Shown piece by piece: positions 34,825-57,900 of a DNA stretch of 64,000 bases. Source of the DNA: Chlorella sorokiniana (Eukaryota > Chlorophyta > Trebouxiophyceae > Chlorellales > Chlorellaceae); NCBI GenBank assembly GCA_025917655.1, contig CP084612.1, positions 310,001-374,000 of the forward strand, given 5' to 3'. Under the pieces are notes generated by a model. It made no database searches. It had not been told where the DNA came from and saw only the letters and a list, made by a program, of their open reading frames with translations. The translations under genes were made by a program, and so were the position numbers. Every line of letters begins with the position of its first letter. The stretch's first letter is position 1.

Positions 34825-35227
34825 CGCGTTGAGCCCAGCCTAAAACAGCGCGAACATTCAAACATCACAGTCCACGATGCTCAAATGTTCCGAAAAGTCC
34901 GATCAATATGCGCGTTGCGCCCCCGCCATGGGGGCATCAGGCGCCGCCAGCCAGGACAGGTGGGGGCTGCCGCCGAGGGCGTTGGCTCCAATACTGTCTG
35001 ACATGCATGGCGGGGCTAGGCAGGGGGCTGGTATCTCATGCTCACCTTCGAACCAACACATGAAGTTGCATCTGGGGCTGGGTCAACACTGCAGCAGCCA
35101 GCCAGAAAGCGCCCGCTCAGCGTGGCTTCGTGAACGGCGCCCGGCCGCACACTGGCCCAGCTGTTCACCTCCTCTTGCTGTTGCATCCCCCTCCACACTG
35201 ATCTGGACCTTTTTTCAATCGAACGAA
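34825..35227. promoter_or_regulatory. Divergent intergenic region between GH88 and SDR genes
   Basis: About 403 bp between opposing starts. GC content is lower near 34850-34920. No element is claimed beyond the head-to-head layout. Confidence 0.4.
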
Positions 35228-38200
35228 ATGGGTGATAAGGCCAAGGGCATGGCAACCGAGGGTGAGGGGATTGTTGGGGGAGGGGGGCTGGACTGTAGGC
35301 AGCACGGGGCCAGCCTTGGACGCTGTTCAGGGAGGGGCGGTGGGTGGCTTCAGGAGCAGAATCCCTTGTGGGGCTGCTGCAGCCGCGCCCCCAGCGCCGA
35401 AGCCAGCAGGGGGCCGGGCTACCGGGCTGCCTGTGGAGCTGCACGTTGCACGGCGTGGCGGGGCGGCGACAGCTGCCGCTGCTGCTCGCGGGGGAGCAGC
35501 TGCCCTTTCCTGCGGCACCCCTCTGCGGCCTCACCACGCTGCTGCGGGCGCTGGCGCAGGCCTGAGCGACGGGTGGCGAGCCCACCAAGGCAGCTGGGTC
35601 TGGAAGCATAGCGGGGCCACCGCCCAGACGTGTCGCGGGCCACCGGGCCTTGGCAATGTCTGGCCTGTGGCACCGCTCTGCTTTCAGACCCAGCTGCCCC
35701 TCGTGGGCTCGCCACCCGTCGCTCAGGCCTGCGTGTGCTGACATGCAGCGTTCTGTTGGGATGGGGCGAGCTGCGGCAGGCGCCCACAGCCCTCCTGCTG
35801 GCCGTTCAGGCGGCTCTTCTGCCAATGCTGCGCCCCCTCCCCTACCCCGGATGCGCCTGCAGGCATGCCCAAGGGCCCCGAAATGAAGGACAAGTCGCAG
35901 GTACGCCCCCACCGCCACGCTTCGACTTTATTGCTGCCGCCCCGCTGTCTTTGGGGCAGCTGCTCCAACCAACCCCTGTCCTACTGGCCTGCCCCTGCCT
36001 GGGCTCCTGCCTGCAGGTGGACACCAGCGCCCTCGCGGCGGCCAGCCTGGGCTGCAGAAGGAGATGGGCACGCCGCCCGTCACCGAGCAGCTGCCCACGC
36101 AGCACGGTGCGCGCCCACAGCGGCGGCTGACCGGATCAACAGTACAACCAGATGCCTGCCCTGCCTGTAGGGCACAGGGGGCGGCGCTGGACCCCTCACC
36201 TCGGCCTTGTGCTGCGATTGGCCTCCCATCCTTCGCTGCCTGCTGCCCCTCGCTCGTTCGTACCCGACTGGTCTGTACCGCTGTACCGCTGTACCGCTGT
36301 GCAGGCGACCAGGATGTGTTGACGATGGAGACGTATCGGGCGTCGGCAAGTTCCAGGGCAAGGTGGGCGCCGCTGCCTGTACAGTGCTCTCACGAGGTGG
36401 AGTTGTTTGCCGCCGCTGTGGCGCTGGAGCCAGTGCCGCCGCTCCCTGCTGCGAGGGCTGCCACTGCCGCAGCCATCATGTTCCCGTGCCCCCTCGTCGC
36501 GCCTCATCCCGCCATGCCCTCCTGCCGCTACCCCCTTCCCCTGCCGCTCCAAATCCCTTTCCCCCACGATTGGGAGCTCCCCCTCCTGGCCCTATCAAAA
36601 GGGCACCTAAGGGCCCGAACTAGCGAGTCAACCCCTCCAGCACCTCAATTCCCACCACCCCACCCAACACGCCAACCCCTCCTGCTCATGTGCCGTCCGC
36701 CCCTCCCTGCAGGTGGCCCTCATCACCGGCGGCGACTCGGGCATCGGCCGCGCCGTGGCGGTGCTGCTGGCAAAGGAGGGCGCCAAGGCGGTGGCCATCG
36801 TCTACCTGCCCAAGGAGCAGCCGGTGCGCTTCGCCCTGGGCGGGGGGGAAGTGGGCACGCTTCTGTGGCGCCCTTGCTGCCACGGGCATGCTGGTGTGTG
36901 CTGGCCAGCAAGCGTTTTCCATCCCACACCTCTGCCGCTGCTCGAATCCTTTGCACCCTTCACGCTGCCGCTGCATCGGGCCTCTGGCCGGCCCCCTCAC
37001 CGACATGGATTCACAAACCCAGCAGCACTCCTGACCCCTCAATAGCCGTCTGCGCACCCACCTTTGTCGCATCCAAAACTCTTTGGTCCCAGCCAATGGC
37101 AGCAAGGTTGCACCGCCTCCCTTGAACGCCTGCAGGACGCCGAAGATGCGCGCAGGCTGATCGAGGCGGAGGGGAGCGAGGCGCTGCTGCTCCCTGCCGA
37201 CCTGTCTGAGGGCGACGCCACTTGCCAGAAGATTGTCAGCCAGGTGGGTTCGTGTGTGTTGGAGGGGGTGTTTGAGGCGTGTGTGACGATCACTGCAGAC
37301 GCGTGCTGATGCTGCGTTGGGAAAGCAGGAGGGGGCCAGCTGCAGCGCCGGGATGGCGCAGATGTCAAGAGTGGGGCGGCAAACGCGTCGGCAGAGACAA
37401 CGTCCAGCACTGCGCAAGGCTGCCACGCCTGCACCACGCTGCCAATCTCTTTACCGCAGCCGAAGCAAGCCGCCTGTGTTTCGCACCCTTACACCCTCCC
37501 ATGTACTTCCTGTACTGCCAGGTGGTGGAAAAGTACGGGCAGGTGGATGTGCTGGTGAACAACGCCGCAGTGCAATACATTGTGCCATCCATTGCGGAAA
37601 CAGGGCCTGAGATTGTGGAGGACACATTCCGGTGAGTAGATGTCAGATCTGAAAGAGGTGCAGGGGCGAGGGGGTGCTACGTTCCCATGTGCATCGGCAG
37701 CGTTGGAAGCGGGGCTGCTGCGTTCCTTGGAAGCTGTAACCAGTTGCACTCTTGCAGTAGCCAGTGCTGGAGCCTCTCCTGCCAGCTGGCACTTAGACAG
37801 CCATCTGATGCGGCCGTCTGCGGCCAGCCTGGAGGTGCAGGCATCATACCTTCGACCCGCTGGGATGTGCTCGTTGGCCCTCCCGCTCCTGTATCCACCA
37901 CTCACACGTCTCCCGTCTCTTTATTGCCCATCTTTGCAGGACCAACATCTTCCCTATGTTCTACTTGGCAAAGTACTGTGTGAGTGTCCCTGCTGTACTG
38001 CTGTGCTGCTGCTCCTGCTGCAAGAAATGCAGGGGAATGGCAGCAGCACCCAGCGCACCTGGCAGGCTGCGCGGCTGCGCAGCAGGAGTGCAGCCACGCC
38101 ATGCATGCCGACACAGCGCTCCTCCCTTTCACCACCACCAAATGGAGCTTTCGCTGCCGGCAAGGCAGCTGGCGTTAGTGCCCCCTGGTCTTCCCGCTCA

Positions 38201-40749
38201 CGTTCCCTCCCGACCCTGCTCCTTTCTTCCAAGCAGGTGCCTCACATGAAGCGCGGCTCCTCCATTGTGAGCTCCACTTCAATCACCGCCTACCAGGTGG
38301 GTGTGGGGGGGGTGGAGGCGCTTGAACACCGGTTGTCCTTCCTTCACTGTCCTTCCTTCAGCTGTCGTCTCCTCTGACCGAGCTTCCTCCCTCCGGCCGC
38401 ACGCCCCCGCCCCCGCCCCCACACACACATACACCTCTTCCCCCACCATACCCACCCACCCCCACACACACACACAATCAGGGCTCTAAGACGCTCCTGG
38501 AGTACGCCTCCACCAAGGCCGCCATCGTGGGCTTCACCCGCTCGCTGGCGCTGCAGCTGGCCCCCAGGGCATCCGCGTCAACGCCGTGGCCTCGGGCCCC
38601 GTGAGCTGACGCACCGCTGCGCTGCTCAGCTGCGCTGCCGCGTGCCTGCAGGGTGCCGCTGCCGGTGACCTCTGGGTCTGCCGGGCAGCCGACATGCACC
38701 TGTCAGCTGCCTGCGCTGTGTCTGCTGCACTGCTGCTGCGCTGCTGCTGCCCGGCGCATTTGTGTGCTGAACCGCTGCCGCCGCTGCGACAGCCGCTGGG
38801 CACCAGAATTAGATGGATCCAGGCGGCGGTCATGCCCCAAAACGCTCTGGAGGGTACCAAGAGCTCTTCGCCGCCGCTGGGCCGCCCCAACCAAGCCTGT
38901 AGCCTCCCGCTGTGGCCACCACTGCAGCTGCTGAGCCCGCTGCCCTCCCCCTTCTCTCTGTCCCCCTTCCCTCCCTCGCCTTCCATGGATGATGACAAGA
39001 ACAGATTTGGACCCCTCTGAACCCCGCCTCCCGCGACCAAGACGACCTCCAGGGCTGGCTGCAGAAGGAGCCACCGCTGGGGCGCATCGGCCAGGTGCGG
39101 TCTTTCCAGTGCAGCCCACCTGCCTGCTGGCAGCCCTGTGGGGTGGCTGCTGCATGGAAGGGGCTCAAAAGCAGGGATGGGGCAGCCGCCGAGCTGTCGG
39201 CTTTCTGTCAGAACAGCTCCACGACGTCGCACGCAGTGGCGCATGCGCTGCGGACGTCGGCGTGCCACAGGATCAGGCTTCCCCGGAAAGCGGGCGCAGC
39301 TGAGGCAGGCTGCCGCCAGCTCAGCCGAGTCGGCTGCGCCTGCTGGTAGTAGGGAGCGCTCTCCTGTGGCACGCTGCCAACCACAGCCCTTGAAGCCAAC
39401 CATGCACGTGTGTCGGCCGGCACTGGCAGTCGGCTGGCGCTGCCTGGAGTGCGAGGGAGCGTGTTGGCTATCAAAATGCCCCACACAGTGCCATCTGCTC
39501 AAGTTGCTGTTAGGGCTGCGAGTGCCCCCAAGCCGGGGCGGCAGCAGGCGCCAGGGTGGGATGAACGGCATCAATGCAGCAGAAAAAGTGCATCTGGAAG
39601 GCAGGTCAGCACGATTGAATCAAGCGCTATGGTTCTCCGCCATGGCGTTGTGCCTTCCAGTGCTATTCTGCAGCAGAATGGTACTTGAAAGCATACCATA
39701 TTCTGCTGCAGAATATCTGGACGGCACAGTGGCATTGCACAGAACCATAGCGCTTGATTAAATGTGCTGACCTGCCTTCCAGATGCACTTTTCTGCTGCA
39801 TCGGGCTTGCCGCTCGGCAGGCGCTGCCGAGTTTGTTCCTAACAAAGCACTCTGGCTGATGCTGTTTGCCAGCAGGCCTGATGCGCTGCTCATGTGTAGC
39901 CCAGTGGGCCTGATGGCAGACTATGGGCAGACATGAGCTGCTGCAGCAGAAACGGCAGCAACTCAGCAGTAGCACACACCTGCCTTGGCTGCGCTGAACG
40001 GAGGGCAGCCCTGTTTGAGACCATCCTTGCTGTTTGGAGACTTCCTTAACTTCGTCTGTCTAAAGCCCCTTTCCAGCAGCCGGCCTACTTCTTCAAGCCC
40101 CACACTGTGCACTGCTGCTGTCAGGCACCCTTTCGCAGAAGCTGCTCAGCGCTGGTTTGTTTGCATTCTTGTCCTCTGTGACACCGTGCAGCTGCATACA
40201 GCAGTAAAGCTGCATGCAGAGGCTACTGATGGCCCCCTACAGAGCTGCTGCATGCTGCTGTGCTGCTGTACATAGCTGCACGGCGAGGCAGGAGGGCGTT
40301 GCAAACAAACCACGCTGCGCTTGAATCGCGCAGCGTGCACCCCTGCCTCCCGTCACTGTCACATGTGTCATTTTATTGAGCCACGCTGCAGCATGGGTGC
40401 CTGCATGCTCGAGGTGCACTGTGTGTGCAGCTGACGCTGACGTGCTCCTTCTGTCCCTCGCAGCCAGTGGAGGCGGCCACCTCCTACGTGTTCCTCGCCT
40501 CACAGGAGGCTGCCTTCATGACGGGCCAGGTGGGGGCAAGGACTGTGCAGAGATGCCGCAGCCCCCGCTGCCAAGCCTGCTGGGCGGCCGCAGCCCCCGC
40601 TGCCAGGCCTGCTGGGCCGCTGTGCGGCACATCAGACAAGGCCACTCTGTGGTCACACAATGAGTGCAACAGCAACTCGCCTTATGTCGAGCGTTTTAAT
40701 TTCCTCGCAGGTTCTGCACCCAGATGGCGGCATGTTCACCTCAAGCTAA
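35228..40749 (+). CDS. Short-chain dehydrogenase/reductase (plant 'glucose and ribitol dehydrogenase homolog' type)
   Basis: NAD(P)-dependent Rossmann oxidoreductase of the classical SDR superfamily. Thirteen exons: 35228-35261, 35863-35900, 36017-36106, 36304-36362, 36713-36823, 37136-37243, 37522-37631, 37940-37979, 38237-38296, 38482-38600, 39005-39094, 40464-40529 and 40711-40749 (TAA). Motifs: cofactor site TGGDSGIG, the NNAA motif (VDVLVNNAAVQY), catalytic Ser in IVSSTS, catalytic YASTK, GIRVNAVASGP, and the C-terminal HPDGGMF. The N-terminal extension (TPPVTEQLPTQHG, VLTMETYRASGKFQGK) is typical of the subgroup with a predicted glucose/ribitol dehydrogenase name; the true substrate is not shown by sequence. 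Single-base deficits lie at 38561-38565 (C-run), near 36350 and near 36050. One intron, 39095-40463, is 1.37 kb and holds a foldback element. Confidence 0.93.
36267..36303 (+). repeat. CTGTACCG tandem repeat ending at a 3' splice site
   Basis: Three perfect 8-bp CTGTACCG units, a degenerate copy upstream and a final CTGTGCAG unit that forms the acceptor of the SDR intron 36107-36303. It resembles the repeats at the acceptors at 29430 and 31177. Confidence 0.8.
39574..39801. mobile_element. 228-bp foldback element (MITE-like) in an SDR intron
   Basis: The left arm 39574-39636 and right arm 39741-39801 are near-perfect inverted repeats starting ATGCAGCAGAAAA and ending ggttct/agaacc. The interior is also self-complementary (two copies of TATTCTGCAGCAGAAT in opposite orientation around 39690), so almost the whole unit can fold into one hairpin. 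It has no coding capacity. Target duplications are not clear. It lies in the longest SDR intron (39095-40463) and is probably spliced out. Confidence 0.8.
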
Positions 40750-41083
40750 AGGCAATGGGCAACAAGCCGGAGCGGCGCGGGCGCAGCTGCTCCAAGCCAG
40801 TTGTGTCGTGCCTCCTGCGACGCCATCAGGTGCAGCCATTCAGCTGGTCAAAGTGATGAACACTTAAAATCTGTGCCATGTGTTGATTAGATGGAATCGT
40901 GAGCTGCAAATGAACAGCAGACATTTGGCAGCGGCATGCTGCACGCTCGGGGCGGGTCAAGCAGAGTGCATGCGTGCGACATCTCTGGCTTGTGCGCGTA
41001 ATCTGGCTTGTGTGCGTAAGGATTCGTGATCGTATTCATACCCTCCAATTGTTCACAAGACAACTCAGTTTGTAAGCAGCGGA
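40750..41083. other. Intergenic region
   Basis: 334 bp between tandem plus-strand genes, comparatively AT-rich (40850-41060). Likely the 3' UTR of the SDR gene and the promoter of the next gene. No ORF or known element is seen. Confidence 0.4.
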
Positions 41084-44379: not shown

Positions 44380-46278
44380 TCACGCCAGCATGCCCGCCAG
44401 CGACGCCGACGGGTTCCCGGCGGCTGCCGCCGCCAGGCAGCGCTGCAGCAGCGCCTGGATGTGGGCCTGCGCCGCCGCCTGCTGGTGCGTCTGCTGCGTC
44501 TGCTGCGCCTGCTGCGCGGCGGCGGCCACCGCCGCCGCCTCGCGCTCCCGCTGCTGGTGCTGCGCAAGCAGCGCCTGCGCCGTCACCAGCGCACGGCTGT
44601 ACTGCTCCGCGGCCAGCTGGCGCTGCCGCTCCGCCTCGCGCTCAGCCAGCAGGGGAGCCAGCATCGCGTGAATCTGAGCAGCGGCTTCCGGAGCAATGCC
44701 CGCCCGAGCCGCCGCAGCCATCACCGTCGCCTCCTGGCGGTCGGGCGGCGGCAGGCTGGCGGGGGGGGCGGCGGCGCCGCCGCCATGGCGGCCTGCAGCG
44801 CGGGCGCCAGCGCGTGCAGCAGCGAGGCGGCGTCCACGCCGCCGTGCGCCGCCTGCGGGCGCAGCACGGCGGGCATCTGCGGGCTGCCGCCGCGGCTGGC
44901 CTGCACCGCCTGCTCAGACTGGCTGCTGTCGCGGCTGGCGCCCGCCGCCATGTGCAGCGTGACCAGCGCGTGGGCCGCCATCTCGTCGCGGCCGCTGCCC
45001 GCGGTGGTCAGCTGCGCCGGCGCGGGGCTGGCACCAGAGAAAGGGTGCTCGGGGTGAGGGGAGCTCGGGGTCGCCGCGCGGGCGCGCGGCTTGTAACCCG
45101 GCATCAACACTTCGTACGGCGCCCAGGCGCCGGGGGCGGGAGACCGCGCGGGGAGGGCCGCGCGGAGGTGGCGCGGCGCTTGGCGGCCGGGCCAGCCGCG
45201 GCGGCGCCCCGTGCGCTTGAGCGTGCGCGGCGGCAGCTGGTCTGCGCGCAGGCTGGTGCGCAGCAGCATGCGGCCGTGGTGGGGGCAGAAAGCCAGGGTG
45301 TCGCCCTGGGCCAGGCGGTTGGCGCGCACGAAATCCGCTGCACAAAGGGGGTGTGGAGAGGGGGAGGAGGCGGCCATGCCGTCAGCATCGAGCGGTGAAG
45401 CGGCAGAAAGATGCCAGGGCCCCAAATTGCGGCCAGGCCGTGCAGCAGTGCTGGCCACACACTACCAAACTCCTCCCAAACGCAGCCTGCAGCCTGCACA
45501 AAAACCAGCGACGCACCCGTGTTTTCCAGCACAAAGGTGGGGCGGTGCTCGCCGCTGACCACGTTCTGCCACGTCTTCATCAGCAGCACCCAGGAGCGCC
45601 CGCCTCGTCCTCAACAGCCTGCGCCACAGAGGGAAGAAAGCAAGGGACGGGGGGAGGGGGTCAAAAGGAGGTCATGCTGGGGAGAGGGCCGCCGCTGAGG
45701 GCGGCGGCAGGGACAGCCAGACTTGTACCAGCGGAGGCCGAGGTGAATCCTGGCAAAACGCACGCTGCCACACGCGCACCAAGGCAGCCGCAGCGCTGAC
45801 GGCTTGCAAACGCAGTTGTGCAGCACCCACAAGCTGGAAACTGCTGGCGGGGGGGGAAGCAGAGGGGGTTGGGGCTCACCAGGTCAACCGACAGCTTGAC
45901 GGGGCCGCCGCCGCGCAGCGCGGGCAGCACGCCCTCGGCGCGGCACAGCCGCAGCAGCTCCGGCAGGCACTGCTGCACTTGGATGCGCGGCAGCACGATG
46001 CGGCCGGTGCGCGCGATTTCGGTGGAAACGTCGCTGTAGGTGAGCACCTTGCTGACGAGGATGGGGCCCGTTCCGGCGGCGGCGCCGCCAGAGCCGATGC
46101 TCGCGCCGCCCGGCTGGTGGCTGGCGCTACCTGCAGCATGCGGGGACGGGCAGGCTGGGTGAGGGAGGGAGGCGGTAGGATGCCTGGGGTGCTGGGCGGC
46201 TGGGTGAGCTGACGTGAGGCTAGCCCTGCGTGTGGCTGTGGGGTCCAGAAGGCCCGCACCTTCCGAGGAGGTGGCCAT
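44380..46278 (-). CDS. B3-domain DNA-binding protein (plant-type transcription factor)
   Basis: Predicted nuclear transcription factor. Exons: 46278-46260 (MATSSEG), 46130-45880, 45618-45517 and 45337-44380; phases match. The B3 fold is split over three exons: ILVSKVLTYSDVS, TGRIVLPRIQVQQCLPEL, WQNVVSGEHRPTFVLENTG and DFVRANRLAQGDTLAF, in the family order (K-L-xxSD, G-R-I/V-P, W..., YxLxxGW-like, F---L--GD). The C-terminal half is Pro/Ala-rich, then a Gln/Ala coiled coil (AHIQALLQRC) that may dimerise. Deficits of one base occur in exon 3 near 45590 and at the G8 run 44761-44768. An alternative start at 46329 exists. Green algae have few B3 proteins; subgroup not determined. Confidence 0.82.
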
Positions 46279-47650
46279 GGCGTTGGAGGGTTTCAGGCCT
46301 GCGGGGCGGACGGAAAACATCAGGGTCACGAATGTGAGCCTTTAAAGCGGTGAACGAGGGGCCCACGCTGCGCTGCTCCTCGCATGAGGGAAGCCGATTT
46401 GGCAAGGCTTGGGTAAGCCTTGGCCTCGGAGTCGTCCGGCGACGGCCGCGCTCCAGGCCTCACAAACAACGCCTGGGGCGGTTTGCAGGCGACGGTGGAC
46501 TCCCCAGGAGAACGGGTGCATGACGTGCTCTCCCCATCCAGCCGCAGCCTTCCGCAGCCGCCGGCTCACCTGTCTCGCGGTGATTTACGCCAAACAAGGG
46601 GGCTTTGCGGATTCTGAAAGGTGCAAACGCCTGGTTGGGCTGTGGTGCGGGTCGGGAGTCTGAACGAGTAACCGCGTGGGCGTTTGTGGAGGTTGGAACA
46701 AGGCTGTTGGATCACAGAAGAGTCGATAAATCGAGAACGACGGGGGAAGTGATGAGGAATAGCTCACAACAGGCTTGTGCCCCGCCGTTTTATGAGCCAC
46801 GCTAGCCATGCAACTGGTTAGTAGATGCATGAGCGATGGGTGGGTGGGCCGGATCCGGCCTCCAACTCTTTCATTGCCGGCCACAATCGTGTTGTAAGCC
46901 AGCGGCGGCAAGGGTTGCACGCAGAGGGCTTCCTCCCACGCACCACAGCTGCCGCCGCTGGCTGTGACGCGCGGCTCACCACATAAGTCCCAACCGAGTG
47001 GCATACCCCACCGCCATGGTTTGCACGCACCCAGTCCAGGGGGCACTCCAGAGCTGTCTTGGGACAGCCTTCTCGCATGCTGGGCCCGGCAAAGGCTGGC
47101 CACGCTGCGGCCTCGTCCTGACGCACTTCCCTGGCCGGCGGCAGGCGGCAGGGCCATGCCAAAGGCCAACCAGCGGCACACGCGTCGCGTGATCCTTCAC
47201 ACCACAACCGATGAGGCAACACGCAAGCCCAGCTGCCAGCCTGACGAAGCGCAGGCGAGCCGGGCGCGGCTGGCGCTGCAGGGTTGCCGCTGCTGGCTGC
47301 TGCCCCTGCCAACACCAGCGCAGGCAGCGGCGCAACGAACATCCTCACAAATACACAGGGACACGAGATCAAGGCGGTCGGTGTGAGGCAAGGAGCATTA
47401 ACCCTCCCCGTTGGGGGAGTGGCCTAGGTGCCGCAGCGCGCACGCCATGGCCCTGCAGCTGCCCGCTCCAGAAGCTGGTGCTGATGCGCGGCTGACCGAA
47501 CTGACCTGCTGTCCTGCTGTAACCTGGGCACGCCTTGCTGTGACAAGGAACGGGTCAAAACGCACCCTGGCAAAATCATTGGAAAATTGTAGCAGAAAGC
47601 GACAGAAAACCTTGGGTGCAGCATTGGCCACGGGCGCCGCCAAGCAGCCG
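46279..47650. other. Region without a supportable gene
   Basis: Minus-strand ORFs of 120-198 codons overlap here (for example 47181-46585 and 47372-46818) but show no recognisable motif, no consistent splice structure and rich Cys/Trp content typical of non-coding GC-rich frames. Some 5' exons of the B3 gene could lie at 46330-46600. Otherwise nothing is seen. Confidence 0.35.
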
Positions 47651-49196
47651 TCACTCGGGCGTCACCAGCAGCACGGCCTGCCAGGCTGCCGCCACCAGCA
47701 GAAGGCACCAGCTCAGCCCATCCACAGCCCGTTCCTCTGCATGCGCCGCCAGCCAAGCAAGAACGCCTTCGTAACAACGCTGCCCTGCAACCCTCGCCGC
47801 TGCCGGCTGCACGGGCGCGCCTGCCTCCGAGGGGGCAAACGCAAGCTGCGCTGCGCCCGGCTGCCCGGCCGCTGCTGCGCTGCCGACGACGGCAGGCCTG
47901 GGAGGGCTGCTCGCGGCTTTGCCGCTGCTGGCCCGCTTCAGCAAGCTGCTGCACTCCGCTCCGGCTGCAGGCTGCGGCTGGCTGGGATGAAGCAGCATCC
48001 GCTGCTCCGCATGGGTCGCTATCAGCCGCCGGTGCCGCTGAAACAGCAGGCTCTCCGCCACCGCCAGTCCCAACGTGGGCGCCACAAAACCCAGCAGCAG
48101 CTCTGCCGCCCCCAGCACCGCCTTGCAGCGGCCCGCCGCATCGTGAGCCGCCACCAGAGGCACGCCTGGGGCAGCCGCCGCTGCAGCAGCAGCGCCGAGA
48201 GGGCGCCGTAGGCGACGGCGGCGCCGCGCTGGGCCGCGGGGTGTTGGAACGCGGCGGTGGCGCAGATGTCGCCGTTGCGCTGCGCGATCAGCAGCATGGT
48301 GGCTGCTTGGGCGGGGATGTGCAGCGCGAGGCGCACCGGCCGTGCCAGGGCCTGCAGTGGTGGCAGGAGCATCAAACAGCACGCGTTTGGCACGTGTTTT
48401 GGCTGCCGCTTGTACGAGCTTTACACTCGCGGGAACGGCAGCCCCACGAAAGCCGCTCCCAATGTGCTCATGCGACAGCGGCGCTCACCAGGATGCTGCC
48501 TGTGGCAGAGAAGCTGGCAAAGAGCACGAGCAGGCAGAAGGCTAGCCCGTCCCGCAGGGCGCTGCCGCCGCTGAAGGGCGGCGTCCCGTTGAGGGCCACG
48601 GCCGTGATCTTCCATGCTGTTGGCGAGGCAGCCACCGCCAGCCTGAGCACTGTCGTCGGCAGCTCCCGGTATCGGACCCAAGCGGCCGGGTGGCGGCGCC
48701 GCCAAGGCAGCGTGCCGACGGTGGCAACGCCGCAGGCAGCCAGGAACGCAAGCTCAACGGGGACAGCGGTGCTGCACGATAGGCGCCGGCCAGGATGACT
48801 ATCTGCAAGGGAGAGAAACCGGGGAGTCGTCAGTGCGGGCAAGGCTCCCGGGAGCTCCCAGCTGCCTGGGCCCGGGTTGATAGCGATGTTATTGTTCGAC
48901 ACACTTACAAGGGCTAGTATATCCAGGAAAGGCTTGTCCTGAGCAGCCAGCCCCTCTCCCACAAAGTCGGGCAGCGAGGGCAGGGCCGCAGAGAGCCCAT
49001 GGCTCATTTGATTCCCTTCCTGGAGGAAAATCGCAACGCAATCTGACGAAGGAAGGCCTTCGGTGAGCTGCACAACCAGTTCCCTCCAGGTCCCCCAAGG
49101 CGCCACTGGCGTGACGAGCATCAGGCAAGCTTTGCCCTCCAACCCATTGAATGCGAATCTGCTGGGCCCCTCTTGTCGACAGATACTGTTGAACAT
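47651..49196 (-). CDS. Unrecognised multi-pass membrane protein
   Basis: Exons: start-48909 (strong donor GTAAGT), 48802-48489 and 48351-47651. Hydrophobic segments suited to membrane helices: VELAFLAACGVATVGTL, LAFCLLVLFASFSATGSIL, LLLGFVAPTLGLAVAESLL and WCLLLVAAAWQAVLLV. Loops are Arg/His-rich (RHPAAWVRYREL, FQRHRRLIATHAEQR). Two one-base deficits are needed to keep the frame: near 48780 and at 48168-48171. The start is uncertain. ATG 49196 is used; the in-frame ATG 49262 would overlap the last exon of the next gene upstream, whose stop is at 49210. The two may be one gene with an unrecognised intron. No family recognised. Confidence 0.55.
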
Positions 49197-49209
49197 GTTG
49201 TTGTCAAAA

Positions 49210-50793
49210 TCATTGGAAGTGTCTTGAGGTTTCGTAGGCTCCGATGCTGGCCAGTGCCGCACACACAGCTGCGAACGGCTGCCACAGCCAAGCCAGCAGC
49301 AGCACCCACACCACGCCAGCTCCCCCGGTCCGCCGCTTCACGGGGCCAGCAGGCAAGCAGCATGCAGCAGAACCGCACGGCAAGCCAGCCTGGCGGCTGC
49401 AGCTTTGGCTGCTGCGCCGGGTCGGGCCGCCGCGCTGGGGCGCCCCTGTTCGCTCCAGCGCCCCGCGCTGCTGTGCCGCCTCCCGCTCGTGCTCTCCCCC
49501 TGCCGTGCCAGCCTCTGCTGCAGCTCAGAAAACCCCCCGGCTCAAGGCGTCGCGCTGCTGCTGCATGGCGGCTGTTGCAGCCTTGCCGGCCATCAGCTTG
49601 CGCTGGGCAGCAGCCAGTTGGAGACGCAGCTGGGCCGCCTCGCGCCCCGCTGCTCCAGCCCATGCGGCTGCGGCGGCCTGCTGCCCTTGCAGATGCTCCG
49701 CCGCGGCGCGCTGCAGCTCAAGCAGCTGCCCGCGCAGAGCGCCTGCCTGCCGGCTGGCAGCAGCAAGAAGAGATCACTGTCATATCAGGTTGACAGCGCA
49801 TGGGTGCTTCCCAGTGGCATGTCTTCATGGGCTGGGCAGTCGATTATTGCCAGTTGTGGGCAGATTGGCATCATAGAGTGAGAGGGGAGAGGTAAAATCA
49901 GCTCAAAGCTGCAGAAGCTGCGAGCCAGCTGCACAGAAGAAAAGAGCAGAGAAGGAGGGCGCCAAGAATGCCAAGCGCTTGTCGTGCATGTTTGGGCTGC
50001 GTTCATTGCGCCACAGGTGACACTGCTGTGGGCCGTGCTGGCATACCACAGGGCTGGCCTTGGACCATTCGGCAAGACCAGGGGCCGAGTTTTGGCCCGA
50101 ATCGACAGGGGCTTGACACATTCAGCTGACACTGCGGTATGGGCCCTGACGACAGCAGCGGAGAGGCCTTGCCATCCTCCAGTTTTCTGGTCCTGAGGGG
50201 GCTGCCCAGGCGAGCCCCGCGGCGCACTCGCTACCAAGCTGCCCTGTGCTTGCCCTCTGCTCCCAGTGCCTCCAAGCCCCCTGCTCTTGCTGCCAGCCCC
50301 TCACGCTCCCTCTCCCCTCCCATTCCTGACCGCAGCTGTGAAGAGCTTGAGAAAGCAGCAGCACGCGGCTGCCAGGGACAAGACCGGTGCTAGCTCGCTG
50401 CCGCCGCCGCCCGCCGCCTGCGACTGCCCGCTCGCCCGCCGCCCGCCGCCGCCTGCTCACGTTTCCTACAGCCTGGTGCAGGTTTGCCACCAGGGAGGCT
50501 GCAGGAGACTTCGTCGGCCCAAGAAGGCCATCAACGGACAGCGAGGATGAGCCCCCTCCTTCTGGGCAGGCTGGAGCTCTGCAGGTGGGCGCCGCGTCAT
50601 CTTCCGGGCTTCTTGTTCTCTGTCGGATGCTGTTGCTGCTCCCGGGCATGCCGGCACAAAGCCTCCCGCCTGTAGCCGATGCCGCCGTACGCGCCGTCGG
50701 CGCCTCTTCCAGCTTTCGCCTGGTATTCTCACACAACTTGCCCACATCCATCTGCGCACAGGCGCCTTGCGCTGTGCAAGCCGCAAGGCGCAA
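49210..50793 (-). CDS. Coiled-coil protein with C-terminal tail anchor (unrecognised)
   Basis: A minus-strand exon from about 49757 encodes a long coiled coil (LRGQLLELQRAAAEHLQ, REAAQLRLQLAAAQRKL) and then, after a frame slip around 49370, a basic stretch KRRTGGAG and a single hydrophobic segment VVWVLLLAWLWQPFAAV close to the stop (YETSRHFQ, TGA 49210-49212). This layout is that of a tail-anchored golgin-like or tethering protein. A likely first exon lies at 50793-50483 (VDGLLGPTKSPAASLV, LEEAPTARTAA); intermediate exons were not resolved. A G-run near 49530 also breaks frame. Part of the first exon is duplicated in inverted orientation just to its right. Confidence 0.5.
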
Positions 50794-50880
50794 GGCGCCT
50801 GTGCGCAGGTGGATGTGGGCAAGCTGTCTGAAGATACCAGGCGAAAGCTGGAAGAGGCGCCGACGGGGCGTAAGGCGGCG
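50683..50880. repeat. Inverted duplication 1 (arms about 91 bp, roughly 90% identical)
   Basis: The left arm 50683-50772 and right arm 50788-50880 are reverse complements with about eight differences, joined by a 15-bp centre. Both arms can be read outward as the same peptide (VDVGKL…TRRKLEEAPT), with Met-Asp/Cys-Glu on the minus copy and Val-Asp/Ser-Glu on the plus copy, so an exon fragment has been duplicated head to head. Confidence 0.9.
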
Positions 50881-52362
50881 TCTTCAGCTGCCGCGCAGGC
50901 CCTGCTGCAAGGCCATGCAAGCCCCGCGGTGTGCCCCCGCAGGGCGTCGCGCGGGTGGCTCAGTATTGTTTCCCTGCTTCGCGGCCCGGCAAGGCCATGC
51001 AAGGCCCCCACCCCGGCCCTGAAGCAGCGGAAACGATCCTGAGCTACCTTGCACGACGCCCTGCGGGGGCACACCGCGGACTGTCGCGGCGGCGGGCGTC
51101 ACTCAGGTCGGCTGCACAAGTCGGGCGCTTCCTTGCCGGCACCCTGTCCCTGTCCCCCACCCGGCCAGCTCAGCGTGCCCCTCGCCCGCGCAGGCCCAGC
51201 CGCCCGAGTTCTTTGAGCTGAAGGGACCAACAAACCCACACCCGCACCCACACCCACCTGATTCATCATGTCGACGGAGAAGAGGACATCGTGGCGGCCG
51301 CGCATGAAGATGCCCCCGGGTTGGCAGCAGCGGTGGGGGCTGCCACGCCGCGTGGCGCGGAGACAGGCGGCACTGCAGCTGTCATATCCCCCTACATACT
51401 CCGCGCCACGCGGCGTGGCAGCCCCCATAGCCGCCGCCAACCCGGGGGGCATCTTCATACGCGGCTGTCGCAATGTCCTCCTCTTCTCTTTCCACATATG
51501 AATCAGGTGGGTGTGGGTGCGGGTGTGGTGGGGGAGGGGGGGGGGGGAGCAGGGGGGGGGTGTGCTGCTGCTTGGGGTGTTGCTGCCTTGGGGAGGGGCA
51601 GAAGCTTATCACAGCCCCGCTCACAGCCTCAACGCGCCGCCACCGAAGATGCTCCGGACGCCGGTGAGCAGCGAGGGCGGCGGCGACCCCTCCAAGCTGG
51701 TTGCGCCGGTGATAGACTGCGCCGTGCACAACACCCACACGCACGGCTACAAGGCTGTGGTGACCCGCGGTGGGGGCCCCGCCGGAGCATGCGCAAGGAG
51801 AGCTGCACGCCCGACAATGCCACTTTCTTCTCAAGAGCCAATGCTGCTGCGCGCTGCCACAACCCCGTTCTGCTGGGGACGTGTTCCTGCACAACCCCGC
51901 GGCCCCGCAGATGGCGGCAGTGTTTGGCCAGGTGTGTGGGTGTGTGGGTGGGGGGTGTGTGTGTGTGTGTGTGGGGGGGCTGCGCGCGCTTGGCTTGAGC
52001 TGGCCTGCTCCGCCAGCTCCCCTTTCAATCCGTGTGCCTCAGCTTGCCAGTGCGCAGGGCCAGCAGTTTGGCCTCTTTCTGCAGCGGCAGCTGCAGGCTG
52101 GGGAGATGGCGCAGGTTGGCGGCCGCGTGGTCGACGTGAGCGGGCCCCTGGCGGAAGCCGTGGTGCAGCTGCTGCTGGGCACCCCCGGCCACCTACAGTT
52201 GGGCGAGGCGCTGCAGCACGAACCGAGCGTGTGCGACGGCCTCAAGACGGCCTCTGCGGCGCTGCGGCTGCGGCCCTGCGGTTTGCTGCCGCTCCTCATG
52301 TTATGCATGGCGCACATTTGCAGCTCGTCTCATGTCAAGCACGGCGCACGTTTGCAGCTCTA
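50790..52362 (+). CDS. Possible plus-strand gene of unknown function over the inverted duplications
   Basis: Exon-like pieces: KLSEDTRRKLEEAPTGRKAA (right arm of duplication 1), AQPPEFFELKGP near 51190, LRTPVSSEGGGDPSKLV and DCAVHNTHTHGYKAVV (51629-51770, after a CTCACAG acceptor), VFLHNPAAPQMAAVFGQ (51885-51930, before GTGTGT) and FGLFLQRQLQAGEMAQVG (52045-52260). They are protein-like and mostly bounded by splice consensus, but frames do not join without slips and I recognise no family. It may be a real gene damaged by the inverted duplications, or a gene plus pseudogene pieces. Confidence 0.35.
50924..51079. repeat. Inverted duplication 2 (exact 26-bp tips, longer imperfect stem)
   Basis: 50924-50949 and 51054-51079 are exact 26-bp reverse complements. 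Homology continues inward at lower identity (GTGGCTCAGTATTGTTTCC against its partner near 51022-51046), so the unit forms a stem of about 65 bp with a loop of about 20 bp. Its centre (about 51001) differs from those of the neighbouring duplications. Confidence 0.9.
51237..51528. repeat. Inverted duplication 3 (arms about 124 bp) carrying an exon-intron junction
   Basis: Left arm about 51237-51360, right arm about 51400-51528, loop of about 40 bp. Each arm contains a coding stretch ending in the same splice donor (AATCAG then GTGGGTGTGG): on the minus strand in the left arm (GGIFMRGRHDVLFSVDMMNQ) and on the plus strand in the right arm (GGIFIRGCRNVLLF, then an in-frame stop). Identity is roughly 85%. 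Confidence 0.9.
51529..51560 (+). repeat. G-homopolymer-rich intronic tract
   Basis: Several runs of five or more G, one of about 12, directly after inverted duplication 3. Such a tract is likely to be miscounted in sequencing and could form G-quadruplexes. Confidence 0.7.
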
Positions 52363-52835
52363 AGGTGGGCTGCCACGGGCTGCCTGCCCGGCCGCGGCCT
52401 GCCCAACCGCAGCCCAGTCTTCGGGTGCTGACCAGGGAAGCATGTCCAGCAGCCAGCTGTCCTGCCCAGCATGGCCGCGCTTCAGGTGCTGGGCAAGGCT
52501 GGTGGCGGCGGCGCTGTGCAGCCCCTTCCAGGGCGGCCTGGGCCCTCGTCTCATGGTTATCACGGCCGCGAAGCTTAAATCTGGGAGCGGGGCAGGTGGA
52601 AAAGGGGGTGGCTTGAAGTGTGGGTGTGAGGGTGCAGGCGCCGGCAATCCAAGGGGCGCTGCATGGGCGCCACATATGTCACCTCACGTGAGGGTTTGCA
52701 GATGGGCAGATCATCCTTGGGAAAGTGTTGGAGATCCCGTTTGCGACATCCGCAAGCTCGCCAACGCGTCCGCCCTCCCATCTCTTCTCTCCACCCGGAG
52801 AACCTCCCTCGCTCCGCCACCCGACAGCCTCAGCC
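52363..52835. other. Intergenic region upstream of the GST gene
   Basis: No supported gene. A short direct repeat (GGCGCAC…TTTGCAGCTC) lies at about 52309-52360 at its left border. The stretch from about 52550 to 52830 is probably the GST promoter and 5' leader. Confidence 0.4.
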
Positions 52836-54382
52836 ATGTCTGCCGCAGCCATGCCCAAGCTCTACGTAGATCGCATGAGCCAGCCGGCCCGCACCTGCAT
52901 CTTGTTCTGCAGGTGGGCCGCCGCCGTTTCCGCCGCCCCGCTGCTTTCTGGACTTGTTCCATCTGACGACACTGGAATCTCTGCTCCCTTGCTTGGTCCC
53001 CAACCTCAGCCCACCCCCTGCACCCATGCACCAGGGTGGCGGGCATCCCGTTTGAGGAGGTGCGGGTCAGCATAGCCAGGCAGGAGCAGCGGCAGGCGGA
53101 GTACCTGGGGGTCAACCCGCTGGGCAAGGTGCCGGCGCTGCGGGACGGCGACGTGTGCCTGCCTGAAAGCGCCGCCATCATGCAGTACCTGGCCGACACG
53201 CGGGCGGTACCGGACCACTGGTACCCAAGTGAGCTTGGAGTTGGGGCGAAAGGGGGATCAGTATGACAGCGTCGCACTGCTGCCGACTGCTGCCACTGCC
53301 GACCGCTTCTGCCGCTGGTCGTGGGTGCTTGCTGGGGCCAGCAGGCAGGCACCTCTGTCACAGCCCAGCCGGCGGCCTTGGTTGCGCTGCAGAGGACCCT
53401 GTGGCGCGGGCGCGGGTGAACGGGGCCATGGCCTGGCACGGCTCCACGCTGCGCATCGGTTCCATGGTGGTGGGCTGGAACAGAGCCATCAGCCTCACGT
53501 GAGCACGGCATCAACCCCCCAGGAGTGTGTGCCGGCTGGAGGGCTGGGGGGGGGCAGCGGCAGCTCCGCTCTGCATTCTTGCTTCTTGGACGCACGCAGC
53601 GCTGCGGTGCTTGGCTGCGCAGCGTGCAGACTGGCTGGGGCTGCGCAGCTCCCTGCGTGAGATCTCGCTCCCGGGCAGCTGTTTGTAGATTGATGAGCTG
53701 CTGCCCATCTGGATGGCAGTGTCCCCCAACCACCTCGCTCCTCCCCTGCCCCCAGCCTGGGCTTCGAGGGCAACGAGCAGCTGGTGCAGAGCTACGGGCT
53801 GCCCACGCTCAAGGCCGCGCTCAAGGTGGGGGGTGGGGGGGGTGGGGAAGGGTGCGATGGGGGAGGGTGGCTGCTGCGCAAGGTGGGAGGGCGGTGAATG
53901 CGGTAGCGGCAGCCGCGACGCTACCCCCCCCTTCCCTCCCCTCCCCTCTCTGGAGCCCCCTTTCGCCAATCACTCCCACTCCTCACCCCCAGTCCCACAC
54001 CACAACTCTTTTACCCCTCCCCCCTCCCCCCCCGCCCGCCACACACACACACTCACGCGGCCAGGCCCTGGATGAGGTGTGGCTGCGGGAGGGCCCCTTC
54101 GTGGCGGGCCAGGCCCAGCCGTCCATCGCCGACCTGCTGCTGGCTTGTGAGGTGGAGCAGAGCTGCCTGCTGGACGGAGCGCTGCTGGTGCGTTCCAAGC
54201 GGTTCCGGACTTTCGGATTGGGGGCAGGGGGGAAAGGGGGCTTGAGAAGAGCGGGGGCACGTGCTTGCTGCGTCCGCTGCCTGCGGCGGCTGGGCGACCG
54301 CCAGCACATGCCCGCCATTCCATGCCGGTCAGGTGAAGCCAGCCGCCCAGCGCCCCTTCCGCCCCTTGGCCCGGTTGTGGCG

Positions 54383-54413
<31 letters not shown>

Positions 54414-54764
54414 TCATATACGGCTGTGCCCCATCCCCCACCCACAACCCCCCTCCCACTCAGCCGCCCTCCATGGCCGAGCTGCTGGAGCCGCACCCCC
54501 GCCTGCGCGCCTGGCTGGCGCGGCTGCGGGAGGCCTGCGCGCCGCACTACGACGGTGAGCGACGGCGTCGGCCAGCCCGCTTTGCTTGCTTCGCTGCAGC
54601 CGCCGCCTGGCAGCGCGCAGGGCTGGACTCCTCTTTCCCAAAGCGGACAGCAGCACCGCCCCTTCACCCGCCTGCCCCGATGCCCCGCAGAGGTGCATGC
54701 GCTGCTGCGCAAGTCACGCGACCGCCTGGTGGCCCGCACCAAGGGCGGCGCCAGCAAGCTGTGA
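52836..54764 (+). CDS. Theta-class glutathione S-transferase
   Basis: Cytosolic detoxification enzyme that conjugates glutathione to electrophiles or reduces peroxides. Seven exons with exact phases and no frame slips: 52836-52912, 53035-53228, 53393-53498, 53756-53825, 54065-54187, 54464-54554 and 54691-54764 (TGA). The N-terminal thioredoxin fold reads KLYVDRMSQPARTC, with the early Ser of the theta active site (DRMSQPAR). VNPLGKVPALRDGD supplies the cis-Pro motif and ESAAIMQYLADT the glutathione gamma-glutamyl contact (E-S). The C-terminal helical domain has FVAGQAQPSIADLLLACEVEQ, the N-capping box of GSTs. The length of about 240 residues fits the class. It is convergent with the condensin gene. 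Confidence 0.93.
54381..54411 (+). repeat. CA dinucleotide microsatellite in a GST intron
   Basis: About 15 CA units in the intron 54188-54463. Similar but shorter CA/TG tracts occur in introns at about 21226-21250 and 17306-17330. Confidence 0.9.
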
Positions 54765-54906
54765 GCGGCGGGTTGGCGCTGGCACAGTGGCAGGCAATGC
54801 TGCGGCCTGCCTGCACTGGAGGCACGTTTTTGGCTCCAGGAGCTGCCTGGTAGCAAACCCTAGTTTTTAAAGTGTCTGATGCTCTTGAACTTTTCCTGTT
54901 TTGAAT

Positions 54907-54911
54907 TTACA
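54907..54911 (-). terminator. TGTAA polyadenylation signal for the condensin gene
   Basis: TTACA on the plus strand, about 52 nt past the minus-strand stop at 54963, in a locally AT-rich stretch. It matches the green-algal poly(A) signal in sequence and position. Confidence 0.55.
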
Positions 54912-54962
54912 GTTGTTCCTGAAGCTGCCTTGACTCATGCGTTTAAGCTGTGCCAGGCGGTT

Positions 54963-57900
54963 TCAGGGCGACATGGCCGCCGGGCCGCCGCCGCCGCCCG
55001 CTCCTGCCGGCTCCGCTCCCGCGGCTGTTGCTGCTGTGCGGGCGCGGCCGCTGGGTGCAGCTGCTGTGCTGGTTGCTGCGGTGCCCTGCCCTGAACCCTC
55101 AGAGGCCAAGCTGGACCTGCGGCTGACCGCTGTTGCGGCAGGTGTGGCGGCTGCACCCGCCAACGTGCTGGCTGGCCGCGGCGGCCGTCCCCTCCGTGGC
55201 ACGGCGCGCCGCCGCTGCCCAGCATGCGCAGCAGCTGCTGCTGCAGCCCGGCGCTGCCCGGCCCTGCCGCCGCCGCCGCCGCCGCGCTTGCGCTTGCGCG
55301 CCGGGTCGCCGCCGCCGCCGCCGCCGTCGCCCTGCTCTGCGGCCTGTTCCGCTGCCTGAGGCACGTGGTTGCTGACAAACTGCCTGAGCGCCTGGCACGC
55401 CCCGCTCGGTAGCCGGCTCGCCAGGCTGGTCCCACCTTTAGGCCCTCCGCCGCCGCCCGCCGCCAGCTGCGTGGAGAGAGCCGCCAGCACCTTGGCCGAC
55501 GGCTGCATGGGCCGCAGCAGGCACGCGGCCGCCCGCACTGCCTCCTCCCCCTCCCTCCCCGCCCGCGCAGCCGGCGGCGGACAGCAGCGCCTGCACTGCC
55601 TGGCTGCACAGCACATCGCTGCGCAGATCGGCAGCCAGCAGCAGCCCGGCGTGGGTGTCGGTGAGCGCCGCCGCCAGGCGGCCCCGCACTGCGCAGGATG
55701 CGCGATTGCCCAACGTTGGTTTTAGGGGTGTACAGATCGAGCCTTGGGCAGTCACATCACACCCTTAATTGGCCGCAGCCCTCATGTCGGAACGCGCTGC
55801 TGCAAGGCTGCACGCGTGCTGCTGCACCGCGCCCCAGCTGCGCCCAGCTTCCGCCCACCTGCCAGCGGCGTCTGGTGGAAGAGGTCCAGCGCCAGGCGGG
55901 CGCTCGCGGGCGGCGCCGCCGCCAGCAGCAGCGCGCGCAGCGCACAGCCCACCACCACCGCCACCCTGGACTGCGGCCCCTGCCTGACAACATCCTCAGA
56001 GTCGGCGCTGCGAGCAAGCGCAAGGCCGGCCGGGCCCAGCACCCCCTGCAGCTTGAGCTTGTTGCTGAGCAGGAGGCGGGAGTAGGCGGCGGCGGCCATG
56101 CACGCCAGCCTGTCGGCAGCGCCCCGTGGCGCACTGCCCGCCGCCGCCTGCTCCTCCGCCGGATCAGGCTGGGCATCCTCACTGTGCTGCTCGCAAGCAG
56201 CTTGTCTGCCATCCTGCTGCTCCGCGCCTGCTGCACCGCTCTGCCCAGCTGCCGCCGGCACCATCAGGTGCCCGATGAGCAGCAGCTTGGAGCCGAACGC
56301 GTTTGGGAAGGCATCCACGGCGGCAGCTGTAACCTCCACGGCAGCCTCCGCGGACGCATCAGCCGCCGTGCCAGCGGGGCCCTCCAGGCGTCGCTCGGCG
56401 AGGCCGACAGCGCGGCGGCAGAGCGGCTCTGACAGCACCGCGAGGCGGCCCAGGGCCGCCAGCGCCGCCGCCTGCAGCTCAACAACGTCGCTGCGTGTCG
56501 GTGTGTGGCAACATGGCTGCTGCACGTTCAAGCAGCTGATGCGACAGAGTAAACTGGCAGGCGGGTCACCACAGCTTTAGGGAGTCTTGCGCACAAGCAG
56601 GTGCCCGCTGGCTGGTCCTGACCTGGACGTCGGCGGGGCGGCCGCCGAGCCGGCCAGCCGCTCCAGCAGCGGCAGGAAGCAGGCGGGGGCGCGTCTGCGG
56701 CCGCCAGCAGCGACTCCAGGAAGCGTTGGGCGGCGGCGGCGTGCTTGGCTGCCTCGTCCTCCCGCTGCATGTAATCGCCCTGAGCCGCTGTCAGCTGCGA
56801 AGCGCCTGCACCTGCCGCTGCTGCAGGCACCGGCTGGGGACCTACCCCCACCTCCGTTGGCCCCTCTTCCGCCCCCTGCACCCTGCTCCTGCTGCTCCAC
56901 AGGGCCGCCCCGTTCCGCCACCCACCACTCCGCCGCCGGGCGCAGCTGGCGTCCCCCGCCTTGCTGCGGTGGCCATGGCCGCCGCCGCCGTCGCCGTTTG
57001 AGCGCAGCTGCTGCAAGAAGGCGGCTTTCTGCTGCTGGTAGGTGCCCGCCATGCTGCCAAGCAGGTCGAAAAGGGCCAGCAGGGCGATGCGCTGGGCACC
57101 CTGCTGCTGCCCTGCCTCCTCCCCCTGGCTTCCGCCCCCGCTGGCTCTGCTGTGCTGCCCGGCAGCGCCACCAGAAGCAGCCCCTCGTCAGCATCCAGCT
57201 GCAGCCTGGCTTGCAAGCCCTCCGCGGGCAGCAGCAGCTCCGCCGCCGCCCGAGCACGGCTGACGCCGCCAGCCGCCACCGCCAGCCCGCGCAGCAGGCG
57301 CAGCGGCGCCTGCGCAAAGGCGGGCATGGCCGCCGCCGCCTCCAGGGCGGCGCCGCGCACCAGGCGGGAACGTGCGGCGGGGGACAGGAGCACAGCGTGC
57401 AGAGCAGGGATGGCCGCCCGGCAGAGTGCCGACGTGCAGCCCTGCACTGCGTTGGGGTCCTCCTGCGTGTCGTCGCCGCTGTAGCCACCGCTGCTTTCAG
57501 AGGCGGGGCGGAGTGTGCTGAGCTGGCACAGAGCCAGGCTGAGGCATTGCAGCAGGCGGCACAGGGCGCCGCTCCATCGGGTGTCGCTCCCTTGTGCGCC
57601 GCCGCTGCCGGCGATGCCTGCTTGCGCGATCTTCCGCAAGGCGTCGACCAGCAGGCGGGCCTCTGCCGCTCCCTCTGCTGCGTTGCTGCCGCTCAGGGGC
57701 CCCAGCACAAGCAGCGCGGCCGCCACTGCGTCAAGGCCTCCTGGCTCGATGCTGCTGCCTTCTGGTGGTGCATCCGCGGCCCTGCCGCTTGCAAAGGCCT
57801 GAATGCGGCGGTAGCACAGCCGGACCGCAGCCACCGCAGCCTCCTTGGCTGCTGCATCTGCCGCGGGCAGTGCTGCGCCTGCTGCCTGCCGCAGCTGTGC

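Follow-up and report, generated by a model that had tools for sequence, protein, structure and literature searches.

Architecture of the locus

The stretch analysed here, called the window, is a 64,000-nucleotide segment of the Chlorella sorokiniana genome (contig C10, positions 310001-374000). The subject of this study is a block of about 300 bp in the window and the three consecutive foldbacks on its right, i.e., inverted duplications whose two arms lie side by side. Comparison of the window with itself confirmed three consecutive foldbacks with separate centres, as put forward in the original prediction. The first two centres (approximately 50780 and 51001) agree with the predicted ones; the third shifts from approximately 51395 to 51382, and the predicted arms of 91, 65 and 124 bp were too short, the half-lengths measured here being approximately 102, 78 and 146. 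The features are listed below; L009 denotes the sequence of the copy on contig C1.

50126-50428, plus strand: the block, approximately 300 bp, without coding signal; four dispersed copies, 72-80% identical pairwise
50678-50882: foldback 1, 88% over 205 columns, 258 bits in the self-comparison
50678-50777, minus strand: left arm of foldback 1, the putative inverted, newer copy by comparison with the C1 copy
50783-50882, plus strand: right arm of foldback 1, original orientation; 50796-50858 matches L009 4708-4770
50907-50925, plus strand: first unit of a 19-base direct repeat, at the left margin of foldback 2; the other unit (95%) lies at 50989-51007, close to the centre of foldback 2
50924-51079: foldback 2, 80% over 160 columns, 125 bits in the self-comparison
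50924-51001, minus strand: left arm of foldback 2, the putative inverted, newer copy; best-matching part 50924-50952
51002-51079, plus strand: right arm of foldback 2, original orientation; 50987-51137 matches L009 4820-4967
51236-51528: foldback 3, 82% over 302 columns, 273 bits in the self-comparison
51236-51381, minus strand: left arm of foldback 3, probably the inverted copy, with weak polarity
51383-51528, plus strand: right arm of foldback 3, probably the original; related sequence on contig C12 has a foldback that is, in our judgement, placed differently

The arms mismatch at 11.8, 15.8 and 12.7% of aligned positions in foldbacks 1, 2 and 3, respectively. The best foldback among 200 dinucleotide shuffles of 50400-51900 reached 42.8 bits, against 125-273 bits for the real ones. 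The predicted RNA fold of 50678-51528 has an energy of -665.8 kcal/mol against a mean of -394 for 20 shuffles (z -33.7).

DNA searches covered the 38.8-Mb genome in 15 contigs and found three further copies of the block, with foldbacks beside each of them:

C1:2751028-2751337: block copy
C1:2752491-2752759 (L009 5492-5760): one foldback of 269 bases, 9% arm mismatch, with a 53-base perfect run
C12:899007-899425, minus strand: block copy; five foldbacks of 132, 416, 80, 320 and 285 bases
C10:398057-398488, minus strand: block copy; four foldbacks of 354, 308, 98 and 233 bases

When the block on C10 served as the query, the same four loci and no other were returned (E up to 0.01), a copy number that is a lower bound. 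The GCC-repeat-rich right end of the block and the sequence beyond it also gave short matches at C1:4277, C6:1670 and C7:2142 kb (60-95 bases), and these three were left out of this count. In all, 13 foldbacks lie to the right of the block: three in the window, five on C12, four in the C10 copy (396-398 kb) and one on C1. At each of the four loci, foldbacks of at least 64 bits occur in the first 2.4 kb on the right of the block; on its left, the 1.4-9.8 kb examined per locus contain none as strong. Outside the block, the C10 copy resembles the others only in 37 bases left of the block, which recur in the window, and in a 34-column inverted match to C12. The body of this copy is thus not detectably similar to the others, and the block is the main thing that the four loci have in common. 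The prediction had held that no feature of the neighbourhood explains the clustering; the presence of a block with four long copies, each with foldbacks to its right, does not support this.

For the statistics, foldbacks of at least 70 bits with a span under 1.5 kb were counted. This cut-off loses one C12 foldback (64 bits), so that 12 family foldbacks enter the tests, against 13 in the anatomical description. The window locus was kept out of the enrichment test because it had prompted the search; that search led to the C12 and C10 copies by way of the block and of further sequence that is not part of the window's foldbacks. These two copies hold eight foldbacks in 9.8 kb, where 0.12 are expected from a background of 3 in 251 kb (P 8e-13, or 1.4e-9 if the background is set at its upper bound). 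Elsewhere in the window there are three foldbacks at 70 bits, in or beside a dehydrogenase gene, and 19 other nuclear stretches (189 kb) have none; these are 18 stretches at round coordinates plus L010, which was brought in by a simple-repeat match, and are not a random sample. Weak foldbacks are commoner, as the same 19 stretches contain 13 matches at 45 bits and three at 55 bits. With respect to the block, the 12 family foldbacks all lie to the right (24.8 kb) and none to the left (16.8 kb over four loci), which gives P 0.002 by share of length and P 0.0012 within 3 kb, both values assuming independent foldbacks. The left stretch of the window ended at 40321, just short of the next foldback, and the 3-kb version is independent of that choice. 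A 28-base perfect palindrome (51.8 bits) is found to the left of the block on C12.

The arms had been described as pieces of coding DNA, and neither their composition nor their gaps support this. The GC contrast between codon positions in pieces of 50126-51528 is 0.00-0.23, compared with a window median of 0.16 and with 0.47 in a nearby glutathione S-transferase (GST) exon. Against three related copies, 43 of the 55 gaps are not multiples of three, and the mismatches are not strongly biased to any one codon position. These alignments cover foldbacks 1 and 2 in part and none of foldback 3, for which the non-coding case is that of composition alone. Long open frames run in several frames across the region, as GC-rich DNA gives. 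A 33-residue stretch common to the window and the C1 copy (55%) is possibly decayed coding sequence. The block and arms are thus without clear coding signal, although the locus was perhaps formerly coding. Among Pfam models searched in six frames over 46001-55990 (E up to 0.1), nothing matched except GST N-terminal (GST_N) models near 53.0 kb. No Pfam match exceeded the curated cut-off in the minus-strand frames, i.e., the orientation of the block, of the C12 and C10 copies. In a viral collection, no relative turned up for a read-through translation of the region, a search that is uninformative, and a protein piece read from the C12 copy matched only its own source.

Unduplicated state and polarity

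At the sites of foldbacks 1 and 2, the C1 copy has continuous sequence and neither foldback. Window 50503-50673 matches L009 4573-4714 (66%), and the match resumes with window 50796-50858 at L009 4708, so that approximately 122 bases are inserted at foldback 1, with a 7-base overlap. A second alignment to the C1 copy also omits the left arms, with the edge placed elsewhere. A perfect 12-base palindrome, CCTGTGCACAGG, occupies L009 4710-4721. The 19-base direct repeat at foldback 2 may reflect re-entry upstream of the departure point. Both arms of the C1 foldback are matched by one single stretch of a neighbouring copy near C1:2760.8 kb, in which no foldback is present. The 9.5 kb taken from C1 contain one foldback, and the neighbour (C1:2758.7-2763.0 kb), which has only the later part of these 9.5 kb in common, has none.

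Polarity was scored by asking whether a relative fits the flanks plus the right arm or the flanks plus the left arm. The right arm was favoured as the original in 16 of 17 rows, comprising 11/11 for the family and 5/6 for the dehydrogenase-gene foldbacks starting at 35555 and 39574, where the right arm is the downstream one. In the family rows, some of them weak, the better-fitting original is therefore always the arm distal to the block. The margins are clear for foldbacks 1 and 2, for the first, third and fourth foldbacks on C12, for the C1 foldback and for 39574 against L052. The margin is weak for foldback 3; the second C12 foldback is confounded, as its comparator has a foldback of its own, and the fifth is without a true homologue. 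The four foldbacks of the C10 copy, which have no relative, were left out.

Foldback 3 and the second C12 foldback are similar (z 6.4 against 60 shuffles). Descent from one ancestral foldback was considered for this pair and set aside, without certainty, since the inverted arms read as inserted at different points. By our judgement of the alignments, the inverted arm comes after a stretch reading PEFFEL in the window and before the PEFFEL stretch on C12. We take the two as probably independent events on this basis.

Age and constraint

Arm mismatch differs between loci (window 13, C12 20, C10 22 and C1 9%; p 2.5e-4) and is homogeneous within them (p 0.72, 0.89 and 0.68, with limited power). 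Equal divergence within a locus suits one burst per locus. The original prediction had allowed for several events or for one copying process that switched repeatedly, and both stand: in the window, with p 0.72, one episode is indistinguishable from three of similar age. The dehydrogenase-gene foldbacks differ in arm divergence (p 0.036) and thus do not have the appearance of one burst. The block copies differ from one another by 20-28%, which makes the window foldbacks, at 13%, look younger than the split of the copies.

If the transcribed strand is as assumed, the arms of 16 foldbacks contain GU and AC mismatches in a ratio of 77:77, a comparison of low power; with other alignment scores, 15 foldbacks gave 59:64. 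Equal counts are what neutral decay predicts, with no selection on pairing in a transcript, and the arms now drift without visible constraint.

The genome search with foldbacks as queries comprised the three of the window, that of C1, the first two and part of the third in the C10 copy and the last two on C12, and left 21-nt targets outside its reach. Its matches were confined to related loci and a single GT-rich simple repeat, in line with the earlier statement that the arms are not a transposon end.

Proposed mechanism

We consider it reasonably probable that the foldbacks arose by recurrent snap-back template switching of a nascent strand in the non-coding nuclear DNA to the right of the block. 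A new strand would grow leftward, toward the block, and its 3' end would leave the template, at least once at a small palindrome. This end would snap back, copy approximately 40-210 of its own last bases and return to the template near the point of departure. Each event would place an inverted copy next to the original, between it and the block. The cause would sit in the block, for example as transcription or R-loops starting there. Both the snap-back and the causal role of the block are what we infer from the sequence, and the promoter is putative. We favour this mechanism because the inverted copies lie beside their source, a relative is without foldbacks 1 and 2, the block-distal arm is the better original and foldbacks are in excess at this locus. 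A fixed direction of the arms is what intrastrand switching, described as having a fixed direction in the excerpt of PMC8794818, leads one to expect.

Several points weigh against this reading. The copied lengths are far above those of the usual short-range switch, and the background is a small sample of stretches chosen at round coordinates. Foldbacks within a locus are possibly not independent, and counted by locus the side of the block is 4/4. Counted likewise, polarity is 5/5 with a two-sided P of 0.06, a figure that includes the two dehydrogenase-gene foldbacks and excludes the C10 copy. The single row for the left arm is 39574-39801 against L051, which is itself a foldback. In 9/17 rows, both single-arm models scored below one that includes the two arms together. 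These rows are the four of 35555, that of 39574 against L051, that of the C1 foldback, those of the second and fifth C12 foldbacks, and that of foldback 3 against the whole C12 stretch. Only three C12 foldbacks, foldbacks 1 and 2 and, against L052, the one at 39574 thus have a clean unduplicated state. Finally, the C1 foldback sits in sequence common to the C1 copy and its C1 neighbour, not to the window.

A bolder version, in which the block drives the recurrent formation of new hairpins to its right and the four loci are copies of a non-coding gene, each building hairpins by snap-back synthesis as a renewing source of double-stranded RNA, seems to us distinctly unlikely.

Alternative explanations

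The block could instead be the promoter or 5' part of four hairpin-RNA genes, whose foldbacks are kept as precursors of small RNAs for Dicer and Argonaute. We regard this as possible but rather unlikely. A common non-coding block followed by up to five consecutive hairpins at each of four loci, together with the very strong predicted folding, speaks for such genes. Domain searches of the genome found a Piwi domain at C1:3585-3586 kb and, above the cut-off, two of RNase III, and many condition-prevalent miRNAs of Chlamydomonas seem to be imprecisely processed from fairly long hairpins, according to the excerpt of PMC5511227. The equal GU and AC counts argue the other way, but long hairpin RNAs need no exact pairing. 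The hairpins also differ between copies, save for foldback 3 and the second of C12, and those searched match only related loci and the one simple repeat; in the window, Rfam gave no match at gathering scores.

Snap-back could also have occurred during reverse transcription, the four copies being retro-inserted transcripts whose cDNA folded back repeatedly in one pass. As cDNA grows to the 5' end of the RNA, new copies would fall on the observed side provided that the RNA starts at the block and extends rightward, and divergence that is equal within and different between loci fits one burst per copy. Reverse-transcriptase matches are numerous in the genome (57 with E of 0.001 or less, 48 above the cut-off; some belong to one element), but those listed are not near the four loci. 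Foldbacks of the same polarity occur in or beside the dehydrogenase gene, and those of the window look younger than the copies (13% against 20-28%), although those of C12 and C10, at 20-22%, do not. This explanation is improbable in our view.

Insertion of a foldback or miniature inverted-repeat transposon would account for the palindromic shape and for several elements per locus, but it is highly improbable. The searched foldbacks match related loci and a simple repeat rather than many sites, and foldbacks 1 and 2 copy adjacent sequence that the C1 copy holds once. When 12 of the 13 family foldbacks were intercompared, a single pair exceeded z 4 (foldback 3 and the second of C12), in our judgement through the common original arm.

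An artefact of assembly or chimeric reads deserves next to no weight: foldback reads are a known long-read artefact (excerpt of PMC12870357), but such reads are near-perfect palindromes, whereas the arms of the 16 foldbacks differ at 9-24% and the four loci carry different foldbacks.

Relation to known systems

The closest likeness is to short-range template switches, in which, according to excerpts of PMC7954356 and PMC8794818, a reverse-complement copy beside its source creates a hairpin in one event and the departure and return points are close, as at foldback 1 with its 7-base overlap. The ancestral state by which such switches are recognised is seen in the C1 copy for foldbacks 1 and 2; for foldback 3, such a state is seen only weakly. 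In great apes, the copied length has a median of 12 and a maximum of 128 (excerpt of PMC7954356), whereas the copies here, taken as half of each foldback, are approximately 40-208 bases (8/13 between 80 and 200), and foldback 3, at approximately 146, is over that maximum. Up to five such events in a row, recurring at copies of one locus, are a further difference.

The foldbacks described here are interstitial, under 0.5 kb and return to the template. Foldback inversions in yeast and human, by contrast, are large chromosome rearrangements. They share with our proposal a DNA end that folds back and primes synthesis (excerpts of PMC7467729, PMC10622511 and PMC3907307). In yeast, quasi-palindrome mutation arises where the template is switched at imperfect inverted repeats. 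It has been seen at high transcription only, and the direction of replication affects it; in the same excerpt (PMC3820800), the events extend the identity of existing arms, unlike here. By analogy, transcription-linked switching could explain foldbacks to the right of a putative promoter block.

Plant microRNA genes formed by inverted duplication (excerpt of PMC3237417) resemble these loci in having a hairpin as a possible small-RNA precursor; they differ in that no trans target was found here among the foldbacks searched and no sign of selection on pairing was seen. How long hairpins arise from ordinary DNA is an open question, and such hairpins feed small-RNA genes and cause fragile sites. 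Template switching has reportedly been considered as an origin of new microRNAs. The process is of a known kind, of which the present case is a variant in the length and number of the foldbacks and in their recurrence at several copies of a single locus. The literature searched, which left most subscription journals outside its coverage and is weak evidence for that reason, gave no account of this variant. With one genome, four related loci and thirteen foldbacks, some having an unduplicated relative and a consistent direction, polarity, length and timing become testable, and the block is a candidate cis element.

Other foldbacks and neighbouring sequence

Three foldbacks lie in or beside the plus-strand short-chain dehydrogenase gene, which was recognised from weak domain pieces at 36.7-38.6 kb:

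35555-35733: foldback, 17% arm mismatch
39574-39801: foldback, 9% arm mismatch
40144-40320: foldback, 22% arm mismatch

Exon-like sequence, identified by eye on both sides, suggests that they are in introns. Four relatives of the first (two on C3 and two on C6) are without such a foldback. For the second, a relative at C13:1178 kb has no foldback and one at C13:967 kb has one. The region 35001-41000 gave only weak, repeat-like matches to the loci of the block family.

To the right of the cluster, 51600-52320 has a higher GC contrast (0.21-0.27) and may hold exons. GT-rich simple repeats occur at 51920-51978 and in many places of the genome, with many partial matches across chromosomes. A GST N-terminal domain lies on the plus strand at approximately 53018-53194.

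In the first 5 kb of contig C15 (117.8 kb), open frames match the cytochrome c assembly, NifH/frxC and nitrogenase-component families, and we take them to be plastid ccsA, chlL and chlN. This plastid-like contig has an inverted match at L024 2446-3821 (76%, 91.5 bits), whose arms are far apart and do not form a zero-loop foldback.

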